Assembly (NCBI GenBank): GCA_947174825.1
Contig: CAMWKN010000076.1
Coordinates: 1-7,065, forward strand
From: an uncultured Clostridium sp.
GTDB lineage: Bacteria; Bacillota_A; Clostridia; Lachnospirales; Lachnospiraceae
DNA: 7,065 nucleotides
Direction of reading: 5' to 3'
Shown: positions 1-7,065 of the stretch, piece by piece
How the letters are laid out: each line of letters begins with the position of its first letter
Position numbering within the stretch: the first letter of the stretch is position 1
The notes under the pieces: generated by a model
What the model was told of the DNA's origin: nothing
Database searches by the model: none
The model's input: only the letters and a program-made list of their open reading frames with translations
Made by a program: the position numbers and the translations under genes

Positions 1-1187
1 CAGTTATATTCGTGAAACAAAATACCATTTGTCAATAACCTGATCCATTTCGTATCATTCATTGCACAGCTCATATACATTTTTTCATAGCCTTTTCCTA
101 CAAACACCTCTCCCATTCCAGCCATAGTTACAAATTCGACCTTTGGCAGTATCTTTTCAATAAGAAGATTTGCATACCGGATATTTTTCTGATATTCCCT
201 TCCCTGTGCTATTTTCACGGTATCTCTACACGATTCGCATTTCAAATTACAAGAGTCTTCAAAATTTACCAAAAGATTCCGCGGGGAGCTTTCCATTACC
301 AAATACTCTCTATCTAATTCCGGTTCAAAATTATCCTCTCTTCCAATAAAAACAGGACATAATTGGCTATTACAAAATGAGTATGTACGATTATTTATTG
401 CCAAACACATTATTTTATGAACTATTCCTGTCCAAATATCTTCTACAACATCTTCTTCCACACAGCCAATTCGCCCAATTACAAACGGCACACAACAACA
501 TTGTACTTCACCTATCTGGTTTAACTCCATATGATTAAAAATAGTTTGACATTCTACATCATAGCAATGCTTATCAAAAATTGTTTTTTTCAGCATCCAT
601 GACGGTTTCGTCAAAAGCTCACTCATCAGGCAATAATCCTCATAGTGCTTCAATCCCCTTTCGTTCAGAAAAGCAATTATAGAATCTGCTTTTGCCACTG
701 TAATGACAATAAAGTAGTTTTTCCAATCTTTGATTTCATCAGGCAGGAAAATTCTTTTGCCACTATTTTTCCAATACAGACCCTGTTCCTTTGAATCCAC
801 AAAATATTCTACATGACTCAGTCCATAAAATGTGGCTAATTTTTCCGCGCGCCGACCTGCTCCCCAAGCAACCATTTTCTTATCAGACGGGTTCAATTGA
901 TATTTATCCAGCAATGAAAAAAAATCTTCTTCATATACATAATCTGAACCATATATCAAATCCATACTTTCTAATTTAGCTCTTTTTTCCGTTTTTTCAT
1001 AATCACAAATAATAATTTGATTATAGCTCTCCTTGACTTTACACAAATCATCAATTCCATAAACAGGAATACCCATCCACTCTTTTTTTTCTTCTTTATC
1101 TGTAAAAAAGCATATTACTTCAAGATCATCAAATATATACATGAAATCTTTAGCTACTCTATTTACTCCGTATATTGCGTACTTCAT
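1..1187 (-). CDS. Radical SAM protein with two N-terminal Rossmann-like modules and an internal SPASM-like region (3' end beyond window)
   Basis: 395 residues are visible and the frame is still open at the left edge, so the C-terminus is missing. The start is ATG at 1187, overlapping the preceding stop as ATGA, with AGGGGG at 1200-1195 seven bases upstream. Residues 1-90 (start MKYAIYGVNRVAKDF) and about 102-190 (MVAWGAGRRAEKLA, then VEYFVDS) look like two tandem Rossmann-like modules with degenerate glycine loops. Residues about 208-278 carry cysteines in a SPASM-like arrangement: GEVQCCCVPF, IGCVEEDVVEDIWTG, YSFCNSQLCP. The radical SAM core follows, with CNLKCESC (Cys313, 317, 320, the CxxxCxxC ligands of the 4Fe-4S cluster), AGMGEVF near 356-362 in the place of the GGE motif, and LLTNG near 384-388. 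Family knowledge predicts reductive cleavage of S-adenosylmethionine in the cytoplasm. The substrate is unknown; the setting suggests a sugar, a lipid-linked glycan or a peptide. An A8 run at 1090-1083 does not break the frame. Confidence 0.85.
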   Translation of the reverse strand, partial: MKYAIYGVNRVAKDFMYIFDDLEVICFFTDKEEKKEWMGIPVYGIDDLCKVKESYNQIIICDYEKTEKRAKLESMDLIYGSDYVYEEDFFSLLDKYQLNPSDKKMVAWGAGRRAEKLATFYGLSHVEYFVDSKEQGLYWKNSGKRIFLPDEIKDWKNYFIVITVAKADSIIAFLNERGLKHYEDYCLMSELLTKPSWMLKKTIFDKHCYDVECQTIFNHMELNQIGEVQCCCVPFVIGRIGCVEEDVVEDIWTGIVHKIMCLAINNRTYSFCNSQLCPVFIGREDNFEPELDREYLVMESSPRNLLVNFEDSCNLKCESCRDTVKIAQGREYQKNIRYANLLIEKILPKVEFVTMAGMGEVFVGKGYEKMYMSCAMNDTKWIRLLTNGILFHEYN

Positions 1188-2692
1188 TGCTCATCCCCCT
1201 TATCAAACAATATATCTTCTAACGATATAACCGGAATATTTGTTCTTTTTCTTAACGCTCTCGAAATCTCACCAAACTCATTTACCACACTGACAATTAT
1301 GGCATCCACTTCTGTTAAAACACTATCCAGCCCTAAAATAGGAATTTCTCTTTCCAAGCCCTGTTTCCGAGTGTCTATTGCATATTCTATTACAATATCT
1401 GAATTTTTTAATTCCTTTCTCAGATGTTCGCCCATCATCCCTAACCCATATATTGCAATTCTGTTCATTCCTCTTTTACTCAGTGTATTCCCTAATAAGT
1501 TCCCCTGTTCTTTCCTTCTCAGCCATTGATCCAAAAGCCTCCAATATTCTTTATACTGTTCCGTCCTTAACTTATAAAACATTAACAATTCTTTTTCCTT
1601 ATTTCCTATGTCCTTCTTTACTGCCTCATTCGAATAGGAACCTAACGCTCTTTTTGTTGCTTCTAAAAAGGCATATGAATTTATCTCATCAGGCTCAAGA
1701 TACATCCCCTCGCCCCATTCGTTCCATGCATTAATAAATGTAAATTCATTCCCCAAATCTTCATTCAATTTAAGTAATTTTTTTAGATATGTTTCATATT
1801 TAGAACTATTACATCCTGTAATTACAACTCCATTTTTACCTTTTCTTGGTGTTGTATCAAAATCAACAATTCCACCAATATAAGTTCCCGCCTCAGCCAT
1901 TTTAGCCTGTGCAATGATATGTTCCCATACCATGTCATAAGAGATGGTTTTTACAGAATTATTAATTTCATAACATTCTGTCGGAAACATACTTCCCGTA
2001 GCATGAAAATATACTGCGTCCAAATATCCCTTTTGAGACGTATTTGCCCCGATAAAATGAATTCCTGCAAATCCGTTATCTATAGCCCATTGATTCCAAC
2101 ATCTTACCATCTCGTACAAATGCGAAATGTTATTGGGTCTGTAAAACATAAAAACCGGCTTATCACATATTTTTATATATCGTTCATCCTCAAAAAAAGG
2201 AAGTAAGTAGTCAAAATGTTCCCTCCACGCGTCTTCCGAACCATATTCCTGCTCTAATAAAATACCATTATTTTCCTCTTTTCTCAGAGGTTCAAATTTT
2301 TGTGCCCAAACATTTGAATCGGCGGCCACGCTCCATGAACGCACCCATGATTCATTTGCCCATGAAAAACAGAACGGCATTTGAATATCATTCCACTTCA
2401 ATAGGTTTTCCGCCGGCTTTTCCAATATCCGTTTTCCCTCTTTAAACCAATAATGATAAAAACATTGACCATATATACCATATTCTTTCATCAAATCTGC
2501 TTGCCACATCATAGTCTGTTTATCCAGCAAATTATAATAATTGTCATTCATTGGCTTTCTTGGCTGATTGTGTCCGTCAAAAAGAGAACTTGCATTACCC
2601 ACGGAAACCCACTCTGTGAATCCATCTCCCCACCACCTATTGTTTTCTTCCGTTACATGAAACTGCGGTAAATACATTGTTATGATTTTCAT
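1184..2692 (-). CDS. WbsX/GH99-like glycan enzyme with C-terminal Rossmann-like module
   Basis: 502 residues. Residues 1 to about 350 match the WbsX family (glycoside hydrolase 99-like, often annotated as a lipopolysaccharide or capsule glycosyltransferase): YLPQFH at 7-12, WWGDGFTEW at 20-28, GIYGQCFYHYWF near 72-83, FCFSWANESWVRSW at 107-120, and NAWNEWGEGMYLEPD at 321-335. GH99 enzymes are endo-alpha-mannosidases; many WbsX proteins sit in O-antigen and capsule loci without a proven reaction, so hydrolase, transglycosidase and transferase all remain possible. After a charged helical linker (about 355-408), residues 409-502 form an added module beginning MNRIAIYGLGMMGEHLRK with an EYAIDT second strand, resembling the modules in neighbouring proteins. 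No signal peptide or membrane segment is visible, so a cytoplasmic location is likely. ATG at 2692 overlaps the upstream stop as ATGA, and AGGAG at 2706-2702 is nine bases away, so the start is secure. Confidence 0.88.
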   Translation of the reverse strand: MKIITMYLPQFHVTEENNRWWGDGFTEWVSVGNASSLFDGHNQPRKPMNDNYYNLLDKQTMMWQADLMKEYGIYGQCFYHYWFKEGKRILEKPAENLLKWNDIQMPFCFSWANESWVRSWSVAADSNVWAQKFEPLRKEENNGILLEQEYGSEDAWREHFDYLLPFFEDERYIKICDKPVFMFYRPNNISHLYEMVRCWNQWAIDNGFAGIHFIGANTSQKGYLDAVYFHATGSMFPTECYEINNSVKTISYDMVWEHIIAQAKMAEAGTYIGGIVDFDTTPRKGKNGVVITGCNSSKYETYLKKLLKLNEDLGNEFTFINAWNEWGEGMYLEPDEINSYAFLEATKRALGSYSNEAVKKDIGNKEKELLMFYKLRTEQYKEYWRLLDQWLRRKEQGNLLGNTLSKRGMNRIAIYGLGMMGEHLRKELKNSDIVIEYAIDTRKQGLEREIPILGLDSVLTEVDAIIVSVVNEFGEISRALRKRTNIPVISLEDILFDKGDEQ

Positions 2693-3345
2693 TCCTCTAA
2701 TCTCCTACTTTGAACTATCATTTCTGCAAGTTCAAAATCCTCAGCAGTATTGATATCTACCGCTTCCTTATAATCAACCTCTTTAATAAAAGGATGTTCC
2801 CCTATTCGTGCGTGATATTTATGGAACACTTCTTTCTTAAATACATATACTCCCGATGTTTCACGGTAAATGGGTTTCAGATCCTGACTTCGAGGCAAAT
2901 TATTCTTTTGAAAGTTTAAGGGGACTCCATCCTGCCATAAAAAGTCCTGTATTCTTGTTGCCGTAAATGCAGAATCATACCCTCCTGATATAACTGAGTC
3001 AATGCAACAATTTACTGTATCTATTGAAATGAATGGTGCTGTTGCATGAGTATATACATATACATCTGCATCCACTATCTTACTAAATTCATCGAATATT
3101 TGTGTGAAATTCGATATAGGCAAATCCAGAAAAGCAGGTCGTTTAATAAAATTGATGCCTTCTATAAGATACTCCTTAATCGCATCATCTGAACAGAAAA
3201 CATAAATTACATCTAAGCTTCCGGATCTAAGCAATGTTGTTAATCCATACTGAATCAACGGTTTTTCTCCTAATAATTTTATATTCTTCCCCGGTAATCG
3301 TTCATTATTTAATTTTATTGGCATTATTCCAACAACTTTACTCAA
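2689..3345 (-). CDS. Acylneuraminate cytidylyltransferase-like CMP-sugar synthetase
   Basis: 218 residues from a TTG start, close to the usual length of a single-domain CMP-N-acetylneuraminate or CMP-KDO synthetase. These enzymes transfer CMP from CTP to the anomeric hydroxyl of a 2-keto-3-deoxy sugar acid and release pyrophosphate. Visible family signatures are the N-terminal nucleotide-binding loop (VVGIMPIKLNNERLPGKN), VYTHATAPF mid-protein, FTATRIQDFLW, RSQDLKPIYRETSGVYVF, and the C-terminal DINTAEDFELAE. The first motif departs from the canonical IPARxGSKR: it has MPIKLNNER, a variant I associate with relatives of unknown sugar specificity. The frame stays open upstream to 3378, but that would overlap the aldolase gene and has no ribosome binding site. 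TTG at 3345 has AGAGGG at 3359-3354 with an eight-base spacer and sits two bases after the aldolase stop. The aldolase neighbour suggests they make and activate the same ulosonic acid (inference). N-acetylneuraminate itself is not shown. Confidence 0.9.
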   Translation of the reverse strand: MSKVVGIMPIKLNNERLPGKNIKLLGEKPLIQYGLTTLLRSGSLDVIYVFCSDDAIKEYLIEGINFIKRPAFLDLPISNFTQIFDEFSKIVDADVYVYTHATAPFISIDTVNCCIDSVISGGYDSAFTATRIQDFLWQDGVPLNFQKNNLPRSQDLKPIYRETSGVYVFKKEVFHKYHARIGEHPFIKEVDYKEAVDINTAEDFELAEMIVQSRRLEE

Positions 3346-3347
3346 AA

Positions 3348-4367
3348 TCAATACCCTCTTTTTTGTAATTCTTTCCATTTATTTATTACATACTGTTTTC
3401 TGCATTTGGTCTTAAATTCCGGCGGAATTGATTTCAAAAAACATTCAAATTGTTCCACCGTGACCTTAGGATAGTCCTCCAAAAGATAACACGCAAAATT
3501 AGGATGATAATGGTATAATCCTGTCAGAAATAAATATGGCGAATACCCCCATTGTTTTTTATCATATATGGGCATTATATACCTGCTAATCAGCCTCAGA
3601 AAAATACCTATATCATATTTTTCCCCCAATATCATATTATAGTAATTTGCAATTAACTCCGTATTCAAATTTCCCGCACCACGTCCCATTCCATATAAAG
3701 AAGAATCAATAATGATTTTTCGCTGTGTGTTATATTCCAATATATCCTGAGCCGTTACAAAAGTTAAATTCATGTTGTTATGCGAATGAAAACCTATTAC
3801 TGCATTTTCATCTAATATATTATCCAATACTTTAAAATACCGTCTAAAATCTTCCTTGAGCATGTAGCCAAAGCTATCTACTATAGAAACTGCATACGGT
3901 TCTAATTCGGCAATTCGCAAACTTAGTTTTGAATATTCATCAATACTATAATCAATCGTTACCATCGGTTGCATAAACAATTTGTATCCTGCACCTTTTA
4001 CTTCTTTAGCTAATGCCAATGCATCTTCTACCTGATGCTTATAAAACACTACCCGTATTCCGTCAATTTTCCCTTGTTTATACGGTTCTAAATCTTTTAT
4101 GTAAAATTGCTGTACATCTGCCATTGCCAATAACATTGATTTCTTTCTATCATTTGGTAAAAAATCATTAATTCGTGTAATGCTATCAAACTGTGTTGTA
4201 TTTCCCCTGTACGGTTTTATCGTATTGAGATATCCCACCTCAATATAATCCATATTGGCTTCAACCAAGCTATGTACCATATCTCGAATTGTTTCATCTT
4301 CAAATTCCCAGTTTGGGATATATCCCCCATCCCTAAGTGTGCAATCCAAAAGACTATATTTCATCAT
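3348..4367 (-). CDS. DRE-TIM metallolyase (HMGL-like) aldolase, 4-hydroxy-2-oxovalerate aldolase type
   Basis: 339 residues. The N-terminus has the class signature LLDCTLRDGGY (6-16), where Arg and Asp of the RD pair serve pyruvate-enolate chemistry and metal binding in this superfamily. Further signatures are YIEVGY (41-46), VDSFGYM (163-169), the metal-binding HSHN (194-197) and DSSLYGMGRGAGNLNTE (221-237), the last typical of the hydroxy-oxovalerate aldolase branch. About 100 C-terminal residues (240-339) resemble the helical extension of that branch, with HYHPNFACYLLE at 286-297. Known relatives cleave or form 4-hydroxy-2-oxo acids from pyruvate and an aldehyde with a divalent metal. No acylating aldehyde dehydrogenase or aromatic-degradation partner is present, so a catabolic role is unlikely; placement next to a CMP-sugar synthetase favours a biosynthetic aldol addition (inference). 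The start is ATG at 4367 (MMKYS), with GGAG at 4383-4380 twelve bases upstream, a rather long spacer. ATG at 4364 or TTG at 4385 are alternatives. Confidence 0.85.
   Translation of the reverse strand: MMKYSLLDCTLRDGGYIPNWEFEDETIRDMVHSLVEANMDYIEVGYLNTIKPYRGNTTQFDSITRINDFLPNDRKKSMLLAMADVQQFYIKDLEPYKQGKIDGIRVVFYKHQVEDALALAKEVKGAGYKLFMQPMVTIDYSIDEYSKLSLRIAELEPYAVSIVDSFGYMLKEDFRRYFKVLDNILDENAVIGFHSHNNMNLTFVTAQDILEYNTQRKIIIDSSLYGMGRGAGNLNTELIANYYNMILGEKYDIGIFLRLISRYIMPIYDKKQWGYSPYLFLTGLYHYHPNFACYLLEDYPKVTVEQFECFLKSIPPEFKTKCRKQYVINKWKELQKRGY
3354..3359 (-). promoter_or_regulatory. Ribosome binding site deciding a TTG start for the cytidylyltransferase
   Basis: AGAGGG lies within the last codons of the aldolase gene, eight bases before TTG at 3345. 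No ATG in the frame has comparable support: the next in-frame ATG, at the MPIK codons, would remove part of the first beta strand and lacks a site. A short gap of two bases after the aldolase stop suggests translational coupling. Confidence 0.65.
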
Positions 4368-4398
4368 CTCTTTAACTTTCTCCAATCAGATATTGCAA

Positions 4399-5643
4399 TT
4401 ACATCAAACTATCAAAATCAACTCTCTCCAACTCATCCCATTGCGCATCTCGAGTTGCGTTTTTTATCGTCCTTCCCTGCGATTCCAAATGTATCCTTGC
4501 TGCTTTAAAAGCTCGCAGATTTTCACTACGACTTCCCTTCATAAGTTTTTCATTAGTATCCGGCGACTTATAGAAATGCGCGCCTTCATCTTCAGGATTT
4601 AGATTCGCTGTCAAAGTCATGTCAACTCCTAATAAATAAATTTCAGAAAAACCCATATAAGCCGCAATTTGAATTGCATCATACACAACCGTTTTCCCCA
4701 TGTACGTTCCTCTTACAATATCATCAGAAAATTGCGTTTTATTCCGTTCGCTTGTTAAGCCGCTATATTCATAAATATTTTCCCCTTCTTTTAGCCAATC
4801 TGTCTTATATAAATGTTTAATAAATTTAATACCATTCAGTTTTTTTATATTCTCCACATCTCTCTTTATAATAAAGTAATCGCTTGCAACATAATAATCC
4901 GGTCTCCAATTCGTGTGTTCATAGGCCAAATATATGCGATTTACACCAAAGCAAATTTCATTATTTTTATACAATTTTTCTAAATCTTTATATTTCAAAC
5001 TTGGTCCGTTTCCAATCACGAAACATCTTTTCTTTTTATGCAAATCTTTGAATTTTAACAGATTAAAATTTCTAAAAGCATATTTCTCGTTATATATTTC
5101 GTTAATGTCCATAACCTGTTTATAATTATTTATCTCCTTTATAAACAGTTCTTTGTCAATGGCATTTGTAACAATCAGAAGGGTTTTCTCTCTTATTATT
5201 TCGTCCGCATCATCGAAGTAAAAATTACCGGCATATCCCATTTCTTTCATTGCTGCACTAATTTCACGCGCTAATGGATTATCCGTACAGAAACGTATAC
5301 TCATATATCGCAGTAAATTTAATTTTTGGACAATATCCTTACTATTGTCATAATAACCATTCTGCATATACGGACTAATATAATAATCAGTAATATTATG
5401 CTCCATTAACTTTTCCGCAATTTCATTTCCACTAAAGTACCCTGTAATTACTATCGTTTCTCCACTACTCTCATTAATATAATTCTGTAACGAAATTATA
5501 GGTATTCCATAAATAAAGCCACCCTGTAATCTTTCATCACTATCAATTATTGCAATTATATTTGATGATCCAAAAAAATTAATTACCCCTATGCAATTAA
5601 TTCCCGCACCAAATAAATAAACGCCTGTTTGTTTGTTCAACAT
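4399..5643 (-). CDS. DUF115/MptE-like putative glycosyltransferase with two N-terminal Rossmann-like modules
   Basis: 414 residues. Residues about 6-92 form one Rossmann-like module (GVYLFGAGINCIG, then NIIAIIDSD, IPIISLQNYI and ETIVITGYFSG). Residues about 112-185 look like a degenerate second copy (MSIRFCTDNPLAREIS, NFYFDDADE, LLIVTNAIDKELF). Residues about 205-400 are DUF115/MptE-like: RCFVIGNGPSLK at 206-217, CFGVNRIYLAY at 231-241, TVVYDAIQIAAYMGFSEIYL from 318 and LLGVDMT at 337-343, then HFY at 356-358. DUF115 also forms the core of Maf flagellin glycosyltransferases, and GNGPSLK is shared with GT42 sialyltransferases, so transfer of a CMP-activated sugar is a reasonable guess beside a CMP-sugar synthetase. 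The pterin pyrophosphokinase label often given to the domain does not fit this context. No membrane segment is seen. ATG at 5643 is preferred, with GGTGA at 5653-5649 close upstream; GTG at 5658 would add five residues and has no site. Confidence 0.8.
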   Translation of the reverse strand: MLNKQTGVYLFGAGINCIGVINFFGSSNIIAIIDSDERLQGGFIYGIPIISLQNYINESSGETIVITGYFSGNEIAEKLMEHNITDYYISPYMQNGYYDNSKDIVQKLNLLRYMSIRFCTDNPLAREISAAMKEMGYAGNFYFDDADEIIREKTLLIVTNAIDKELFIKEINNYKQVMDINEIYNEKYAFRNFNLLKFKDLHKKKRCFVIGNGPSLKYKDLEKLYKNNEICFGVNRIYLAYEHTNWRPDYYVASDYFIIKRDVENIKKLNGIKFIKHLYKTDWLKEGENIYEYSGLTSERNKTQFSDDIVRGTYMGKTVVYDAIQIAAYMGFSEIYLLGVDMTLTANLNPEDEGAHFYKSPDTNEKLMKGSRSENLRAFKAARIHLESQGRTIKNATRDAQWDELERVDFDSLM

Positions 5644-5684
5644 CACTTTCACCCACACATTTTTTTGGTTATAAACACATTAAG

Positions 5685-6020
5685 CTATCTCATTTGCTCT
5701 GCTACGTCTACCAGACACTTATTATCTGCTCCATACCCTCTACATTTAGCACATAAACTTATATGATCATTCACCATGATTCCCAAGCAATACTCCAGCA
5801 TCTGCATTTTATCTTTTTGTATATCCCCTGTTGACTTCTCCAAATCTAAATAGTCGCTCTCACTTGGTCTATGCAGGCCACTTTTTTCCGCATCCCACAT
5901 TGTACTGCAATAATAGAATTTTTTATCATTTATGCTATGGCACCCTTGCGAACAGTTTAACATATGCTGTTTTAAATCACCCTGTAGTTCCAACGTTTCA
6001 TGCGGAAAGCCAATATCCAT
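5685..6020 (-). CDS. C-terminal piece of the split radical SAM gene: SPASM-like cysteine region
   Basis: 111 residues from the first in-frame ATG at 6020; the coding frame actually continues upstream into the poly-G run (IECSISDYKTW precedes the ATG). There is no ribosome binding site before 6020, so independent initiation is unlikely. Cysteines fall in two groups, CSQGC with FYYC, and a later CLGIM, CAKC, NKC set, consistent with auxiliary iron-sulfur cluster binding as in SPASM or twitch domains. The segment WDAEKSG through DY and GADN to QM matches the end of the upstream neighbour, marking the two genes as paralogues. The stop lies 41 bases before the next gene's ATG. Confidence 0.65.
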   Translation of the reverse strand: MDIGFPHETLELQGDLKQHMLNCSQGCHSINDKKFYYCSTMWDAEKSGLHRPSESDYLDLEKSTGDIQKDKMQMLEYCLGIMVNDHISLCAKCRGYGADNKCLVDVAEQMR

Positions 6021-6049
6021 CCATGTCTTATAATCAGATATTGAGCATT

Positions 6050-6673
6050 CTATACCCCCCCCCGTTTAAATTTTGTTTCTACTTCTTCAAGTCTGGGTTT
6101 GTATGGTATCATCTTCGTATAGTCACTGATTCTTACCGTAACATTACATTTTCGCATTACACGAATCAACTCTTCACTTGGTACAACGCTTCCGTTTGTA
6201 ATAATCTGAATATACCCAATTTGCTCACTGAAATTTTCATATACATTTGATATTATAGATGGCAATTCCTTATTTAATAATGGTTCTCCGCCTATCAAAT
6301 AATAACTTGCCAGATAATCTACCCTATTAAATAACAGCATCAAATCCTCTACAATCTCTTTAGGAGTGTAATCATACTGTTTGTCAAAATATGGCATCAA
6401 ATTTGAACAATATTTGCATCGGAATGTACATCTTGTAGTAACAGCAGATAGCACTTGTGATATACATACTTGCTTTTTATTCTTCCAATACCACTCAAGC
6501 ATAAAGATTTCCAATCGGCAAAAGTCTATATACTCCCGCATCCCAATATCCAATAAGTCGTCCTTTATGCTTTTATATGCAAGAGAACCGGTCGCTACTA
6601 TCACTTTACAATTATTAATCAAAGCTTCCGCATCCTTTAATGATTTAATTTCAATATCCTGCTTATTTCCCAA
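6050..6673 (-). CDS. Middle piece of the split radical SAM gene: end of the Rossmann-like module plus radical SAM core
   Basis: 207 residues if read from TTG at 6673, but the true reading probably enters from the preceding piece; no convincing ribosome binding site precedes the TTG. Residues about 22-50 finish the Rossmann-like module. The core carries CTFRCKYC (Cys82, 86, 89 in this numbering; the CxxxCxxC ligands of the 4Fe-4S cluster), IGGEPLL (GGE motif, SAM amino-group binding, 127-133) and IQIITNG further on. It then runs through KFKRGGV and stops at TAG 6052-6050, immediately after the poly-G run, before the SPASM-like region. If expressed alone it would lack the auxiliary-cluster cysteines. 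Confidence 0.75.
   Translation of the reverse strand: MGNKQDIEIKSLKDAEALINNCKVIVATGSLAYKSIKDDLLDIGMREYIDFCRLEIFMLEWYWKNKKQVCISQVLSAVTTRCTFRCKYCSNLMPYFDKQYDYTPKEIVEDLMLLFNRVDYLASYYLIGGEPLLNKELPSIISNVYENFSEQIGYIQIITNGSVVPSEELIRVMRKCNVTVRISDYTKMIPYKPRLEEVETKFKRGGV
6055..6063 (-). repeat. Poly-G tract (G9 on the coding strand) at the frame break
   Basis: Nine consecutive G on the coding strand, flanked by AAAC and TATAG, in an otherwise strongly AT-rich region. With nine G the frame ends at TAG 6052-6050. With seven or ten G it continues through the SPASM-like region. The overlap of the two open frames spans just this tract, because the downstream frame has a TAA at 6068-6066, directly upstream of it. 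Homopolymeric G tracts inside genes are established slipped-strand phase-variation sites in other bacteria such as Campylobacter and Neisseria. An assembly length error is the main alternative. Confidence 0.85.
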
Positions 6674-6845
6674 TCAACTGCCAATCAGGATTGTTGTCTA
6701 TAATAAATTTAATATTGAAATCCATCTTTAGCTTTTTTATATTTCTCTGAGCAACTCGTCCAAATCCATATATTATAATATCCTTTATCCCTGTCCAATC
6801 ATCTGACAGCTTATTCAATATATTCTCCTTCTTGCTTTTCTCCAT
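6663..6845 (-). CDS. N-terminal piece of the split radical SAM gene: half a Rossmann-like module
   Basis: 60 residues from ATG at 6845, 18 bases after the upstream stop. An AGGA site lies twelve bases before the ATG, a long spacer. After a charged helix it reads IIIYGFGRVAQRNIKKL (first strand and glycine loop) and FIIDNNPDW (second strand with acidic end), then stops at TAA 6665-6663. The remaining strands of the module (CKVIVATGS, then a helix ending in DLLDIG) are in the next frame, so this is half a fold and unlikely to be a free-standing functional protein. Confidence 0.6.
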   Translation of the reverse strand: MEKSKKENILNKLSDDWTGIKDIIIYGFGRVAQRNIKKLKMDFNIKFIIDNNPDWQLIGK

Positions 6846-6863
6846 TTTTTATATACATCCTTT

Positions 6864-7065
6864 TTACATTTGCACTCCTACCGGAACATAGTTTGTATTG
6901 TCACTCCCACAACCACCACATATTCTGCAAAAACTGCTTGTTCCCCTACTCAGTTCAACTATTTTGTGACATTCCGCTTTATTATTCATATCAACGTCTT
7001 TTAGCACAATATAATCATCCTCCCTTAGCTTGAAGTGGCCACTCTTCTCAGCACTCCACGAAATA
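6864..7065 (-). CDS. C-terminal end of a radical SAM/SPASM-like protein (5' end beyond window)
   Basis: The last 66 residues of a gene entering from the right edge, stopping at TAA 6866-6864. The visible part is SWSAEKSGHF, DDYIVL, then FCRICGGCGSDN and VPVGVQM at the end. Cysteines in C-x2-C-x2-C spacing suggest one set of ligands for an auxiliary iron-sulfur cluster, as in SPASM-type tails. The match to the tail of the broken neighbour (W-x-AEKSG, DY, C-x2-C-x-G-x-G-x-DN, QM) is the main reason for calling it a radical SAM protein, since the core lies outside the window. Here the frame is intact. The next gene begins 18 bases on, so they are probably cotranscribed and arose by tandem duplication (inference). 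Confidence 0.7.
   Translation of the reverse strand, partial: ISWSAEKSGHFKLREDDYIVLKDVDMNNKAECHKIVELSRGTSSFCRICGGCGSDNTNYVPVGVQM

Follow-up and report, generated by a model that had tools for sequence, protein, structure and literature searches.

A nine-G tract at the frame break of a probable radical SAM sugar dehydrogenase gene: a candidate slip-prone on/off switch

Contingency loci built on poly-G tracts are best known in Campylobacter and Neisseria. Here we describe a run of nine G residues in a 7065-base stretch of DNA (hereafter, the window), where it lies at a break in the reading frame of a gene for a radical S-adenosylmethionine (SAM) enzyme. Among the closest described systems are two radical SAM genes, CFT03427_1545 and CFT03427_1558, which are listed with tracts of G(9-10) and G(9) as putatively phase-variable members of the Campylobacter fetus core phasome in the PhasomeIt paper (PMC6321876). 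These genes resemble the window gene in their superfamily and in the length of the G tract. However, they belong to another phylum, their tract lengths are tabulated over strains whereas the window is one contig, and the likeness is one of superfamily rather than established homology. Because the C. fetus genes are listed in this way, the idea that a poly-G tract controls a radical SAM gene is not new. Two Campylobacter jejuni genes for surface-glycan modification are also comparable in carrying an intragenic G tract: maf1, with G(7-13) (PMC6321876), and cgtB, with 8 or 9 G, where a change in length shifts the frame (PMC6321876, PMC6437147). As described in these sources, the enzyme types differ from that of the window gene, and variation is observed there but presumed here.

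The tract reads as nine C residues on the plus strand and as nine G residues in the coding sense (6055-6063). The sequence-only reading that preceded this analysis had described it as a nine-G run in AT-rich DNA, and this description holds. The GC content of the window is 34.3%, the tract is the sole G or C run of at least six in all 7065 bases, and the next longest is five. A run of this length occurred in 7 of 200 dinucleotide-preserving shuffles, and a G run of nine appeared in 27 of 2,000 synonymous recodings of the window proteins. Tract length alone is thus uncommon but not extreme, and it is the location at a frame break that is unusual. The frame arithmetic proposed in that reading was likewise borne out. 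With nine G residues, the open reading frame (ORF) of the radical SAM core terminates as KRGGV* with a stop at 6050-6052, while a cysteine-rich tail remains open in another frame to 5685. Two of the three frames stop immediately or within about 10 residues after the tract, and the third reads through the tail. A homopolymer of about eight or more residues in a coding frame, at the point where that frame is lost, is a criterion for contingency loci, and the nine-G tract has these properties.

We tentatively favor, at somewhat less than even confidence, the view that the poly-G tract is prone to slippage and switches, or once switched, a probable sugar dehydrogenase gene on and off. Slippage by DNA polymerase would alter the number of G residues in the tract. 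Two of the resulting frames would give a protein without its auxiliary Fe-S domain, which is predicted to be inactive (off), whereas the third would allow the tail to be read through (on). Such slippage would be the cause of the break and would be reversible, and an active enzyme would be expected to alter a glycan. The contig would represent the off state, further disabled by a second break upstream.

The evidence for this view comes largely from relatives of the gene. Homologs were sought with the three gene pieces joined by X as the query (E ≤ 1e-20), and the best 120 of 158 proteins, together with the protein P0122, were compared at the tract site in one protein-level alignment of 121 homologs. 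The four best matches among those listed are full length and 69-73% identical, and none is closer. The residue count across the site is identical in 120 of the 121 homologs. P0035, which stands for 18 clustered sequences, alone departs from this count; it is 96% identical to the intact protein P0003 and has an intact head. P0035 reads KAFMRGGGRIFYIRL and then stops. When shifted by one base, the codons for its GRIFYIRL* ending permit VEYSISDY, which are the next residues of the family, and P0035 therefore appears to be frame-shifted by a net +1 within its Arg-Gly-Gly codons, as judged from the protein. At the same site the window has 14 bases compared to 12 in the family (net +2). Three length states thus appear to be represented: net +2 in the window, net +1 in P0035 (again from protein), and one common spacing in all other homologs.

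Residues at the site are otherwise variable, and the commonest triplets, Asp-Asn-Gly and Glu-Asn-Gly, each occur in 6 of the 121 homologs. Gly-Gly is present in four and Arg-Gly-Gly in two (P0002 and P0035), in addition to the window. Given this rarity, the Gly-rich codons seem to have originated inside the nearest sub-clade. Two of the three Arg-Gly-Gly sequences, counting the window, are broken at the site, and their length states differ. P0122 (211 residues), which is closely related and has an open frame across the site (KKGGID), begins mid-core and may be broken or cut upstream as well.

The tail beyond the tract shows no sign of decay. Its identity to homologs is 66-76% for P0001-P0004 and P0122 and 62% for P0005-P0007. 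When the window is compared with P0001, P0002, P0003, and P0004 in turn, the tail has values of 0.71, 0.70, 0.69, and 0.66 and the core has values of 0.72, 0.70, 0.70, and 0.71. In the intact control, a comparison of P0001 with P0002-P0004, the tail values are 0.73, 0.68, and 0.69 and the core values are 0.71, 0.74, and 0.69. Furthermore, the tail region has no stop codons in its own frame, compared with 10 and 15 in the other two frames. As far as these sequence comparisons indicate, either the frame break is recent or selection is still keeping the tail. The sequence-only reading had also matched the tail to a neighboring paralog. That match is present but modest (23 of 69 residues identical), and homologs of the same gene match better. 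We therefore rejected a derivation of the tail from the paralog, to which it is 33% identical.

Several features indicate what the gene probably encodes. The core carries the CX3CX2C radical SAM motif (CTFRCKYC), and among 66 homologs C131 and C138 are invariant and C135 is nearly so. In the part of these homologs that corresponds to the tail, C289, C304, C356, and C359 are invariant, as expected of a four-cysteine auxiliary domain. The Twitch radical SAM dehydrogenases SpeY and BtrN share both the motif and a four-cysteine C-terminal domain, and a fold match to SpeY covers residues 107-379 of the P0003 model. In a profile search of the PDB, 5wgg ranked first (E = 5.4e-9), with a match confined to the core, and SpeY came just behind it (E = 9.1e-9), with a match that also took in some of the tail. 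P0003 matched NF033640, the twitch subfamily of NCBIfam, only in the core, with 22.6 of 170 bits, far under the cutoff. We conclude that the tract gene probably encodes a Rossmann-radical SAM-Twitch enzyme, likely a sugar dehydrogenase, whose tail is predicted from the invariant cysteines and the fold match to bind an auxiliary Fe-S cluster. Two-electron oxidation of a sugar-like alcohol is suggested by the fold.

Other observations weigh against a switch. The gene exists as three pieces running from 6845 down to 5685, with the N-terminal piece and the tail in one frame and the core in another. The core (6050-6673) is thus out of frame with the N-terminal piece (6663-6845), and this second break was overlooked in the sequence-only reading. 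The two ORFs overlap at 6663-6673, where the N-terminal one stops and the core one starts with TTG. A contingency locus is expected to leave the rest of its gene intact, and here the break at 6663-6673 interrupts it. Consequently, this copy is broken at any tract length, unless the upstream break is an assembly error, and it does not count as a working contingency locus. Because the upstream break is independent, this copy probably represents an off allele in the first stages of decay. In addition, truncation in this region is not peculiar to the G tract. L001, a relative with 51% identity in the Selenomonadales metagenome-assembled genome G001, is the one relative examined as DNA. Its frame is lost about three codons beyond the site (3300-3330 in L001), and there is no G run at the break (compare P0032). 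P0074 and P0118 end within some 16 residues after the site, and P0073 (287 residues, 46% identity) ends about 31 residues after it as TRGGGIM. This last ending might reflect another G-rich frame break elsewhere. We rejected L001 as a possible third example of breakage at the tract, since its break lies beyond the site and has no G run. G001 carries a second copy, L003, with an open frame of 391 residues.

Part of the original proposal of a phase-variation switch therefore stands: a separate lineage is broken at the site in a different length state, other relatives read through, and the tail is undecayed. The second break and the G-free break in L001 count against it. Overall, the case for a switch is suggestive, and this copy appears to be disabled twice. 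The poly-G site may nevertheless act as a contingency locus in its sub-clade. In its fullest form, the proposal would have a poly-G tract truly switching a Twitch radical SAM sugar dehydrogenase on and off in a sub-clade of gut-type Firmicutes. Slippage would occur at the turn that joins the core to the auxiliary-cluster domain, so that cells would toggle a keto-sugar modification of a surface glycan. We consider this form unlikely to be correct.

A close second to the switch is the possibility that the gene is a young pseudogene, lost recently through two frame shifts without adaptive switching, in which the G-rich stretch is merely a mutational hot spot. We regard this as a real if somewhat doubtful possibility. 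It would account for two independent breaks in one gene, one of them outside any long homopolymer, alongside five open genes at 3-5658, and it fits with the break in L001. However, it does not predict the lack of excess divergence in core and tail, the stop-free tail frame, the breakage of another lineage at this site with its head intact, or the restriction of Gly-rich codons at the site to close relatives.

It is improbable that the true gene is whole and that one or both breaks are consensus errors in a short metagenome contig. Long G runs do slip during polymerase chain reaction, the sequence comes from one contig of 7065 bases, and a tail conserved equally with the core is what a whole gene would show. 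Conversely, of the eight A/T runs of at least seven in the window, seven fall within ORFs whose frame is unbroken and one falls outside these genes. This lowers the likelihood of an assembly prone to homopolymer errors, although an error is possible. Moreover, both breaks would need to be wrong, the second is not at a long homopolymer, and P0035, a distinct sequence, is broken at the same site. Finally, slippage during transcription or translation of the G run could yield a minority of tail-containing protein, given that the tract provides a G GGG GGG slip site and that the tail is read in the -1 frame relative to the core. This is very improbable: the N-terminal domain would still be cut off by the upstream break, and 120 of 121 relatives have one spacing at the site.

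If a poly-G switch does work in a glycan radical SAM enzyme of this kind, it would extend such switching to an AT-rich commensal lineage, and tract length in metagenome reads would become a readable marker for surface-sugar switching in communities. Among the titles and opening parts of abstracts listed for our search terms from open-license PMC papers, with one list covering 15 of 221 records, we found no report of poly-G phase variation in gut Firmicutes. The Firmicute-like setting, and a slip location ahead of an auxiliary-cluster domain, would thus apparently be new with respect to that literature.

A scan of genome contigs recovered L001 alone, and among 149 genomes of its phylum, G001 included, a match at E ≤ 1e-40 occurred only in G001. 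A protein search with P0003 found matches of 31-36% identity on three Brachyspira hyodysenteriae plasmids (NZ_CP046931.1, NC_012226.1, and NZ_CP019601.1) and no match in phages. Scans of viral contigs with two alignments, and a DNA pattern search around the tract with a variable gap, recovered no relative. A search for split heads with a 207-residue query returned five proteins, the window's own among them, and a search for orphan tails with a 111-residue query returned the window's own protein alone.

The window appears to span a complete contig, as its own proteins are assigned to a longest contig of 7065 bases. All window ORFs with a family match or a homolog lie on the minus strand (Table 1). 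The gene neighborhood appears to resemble a surface-glycan cluster. PF01973, found in the MptE-like gene (4399-5658), is the domain of Maf flagellin-glycosylation proteins. Campylobacter maf1 is among the genes listed with a variable G tract (PMC6321876). The terms "glycan-modifying" and "low-GC Gram-positive" used in the initial description are plausible from the neighboring genes and from the names of relatives, which include a Ruminococcus sp. (P0019, 51% identity), Selenomonadales, and, distantly, Brachyspira.

Table 1. Coordinates of features in the 7065-base window
Feature	Position	Strand	Remarks
Upstream paralog, C-terminal end	6864..7064	-	Runs off the contig; related tail with CxxC motif
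N-terminal Rossmann-like piece, 60 residues	6663..6845	-	Frame differs from core; fold seen in the equivalent part of the P0003 model
Second frame break, same gene	6663..6673	-	Without a long homopolymer
Radical SAM core ORF, 207 residues as called	6050..6673	-	PF04055, E = 2.1e-13; CTFRCKYC motif; ends KRGGV*
Nine-G homopolymer (coding strand)	6055..6063	-	Frame break between radical SAM core and Twitch-like tail
Out-of-frame tail, Twitch-like putative auxiliary Fe-S domain	5685..6054	-	About 122 open codons; equivalent family part has four invariant cysteines
MptE-like gene, intact	4399..5658	-	PF01973; directly downstream of the tract gene
HMGL-like aldolase/synthase family gene, intact	3348..4385	-	PF00682
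Cytidylyltransferase, intact	2689..3378	-	PF02348; best NCBIfam match PseF, below cutoff
WbsX-family glycosyltransferase, intact	1184..2692	-	PF14307
Second radical-SAM-like protein	3..1187	-	Weak NCBIfam radical SAM matches below cutoff; cut by contig end

A DNA search with the whole window against plasmids (near) and phages (distant) returned nothing except a match of 66.6% between the start of the WbsX gene (2345-2692) and MT835848. This fecal record is labeled Bacteriophage sp. and is perhaps a mislabeled or host-carrying contig.
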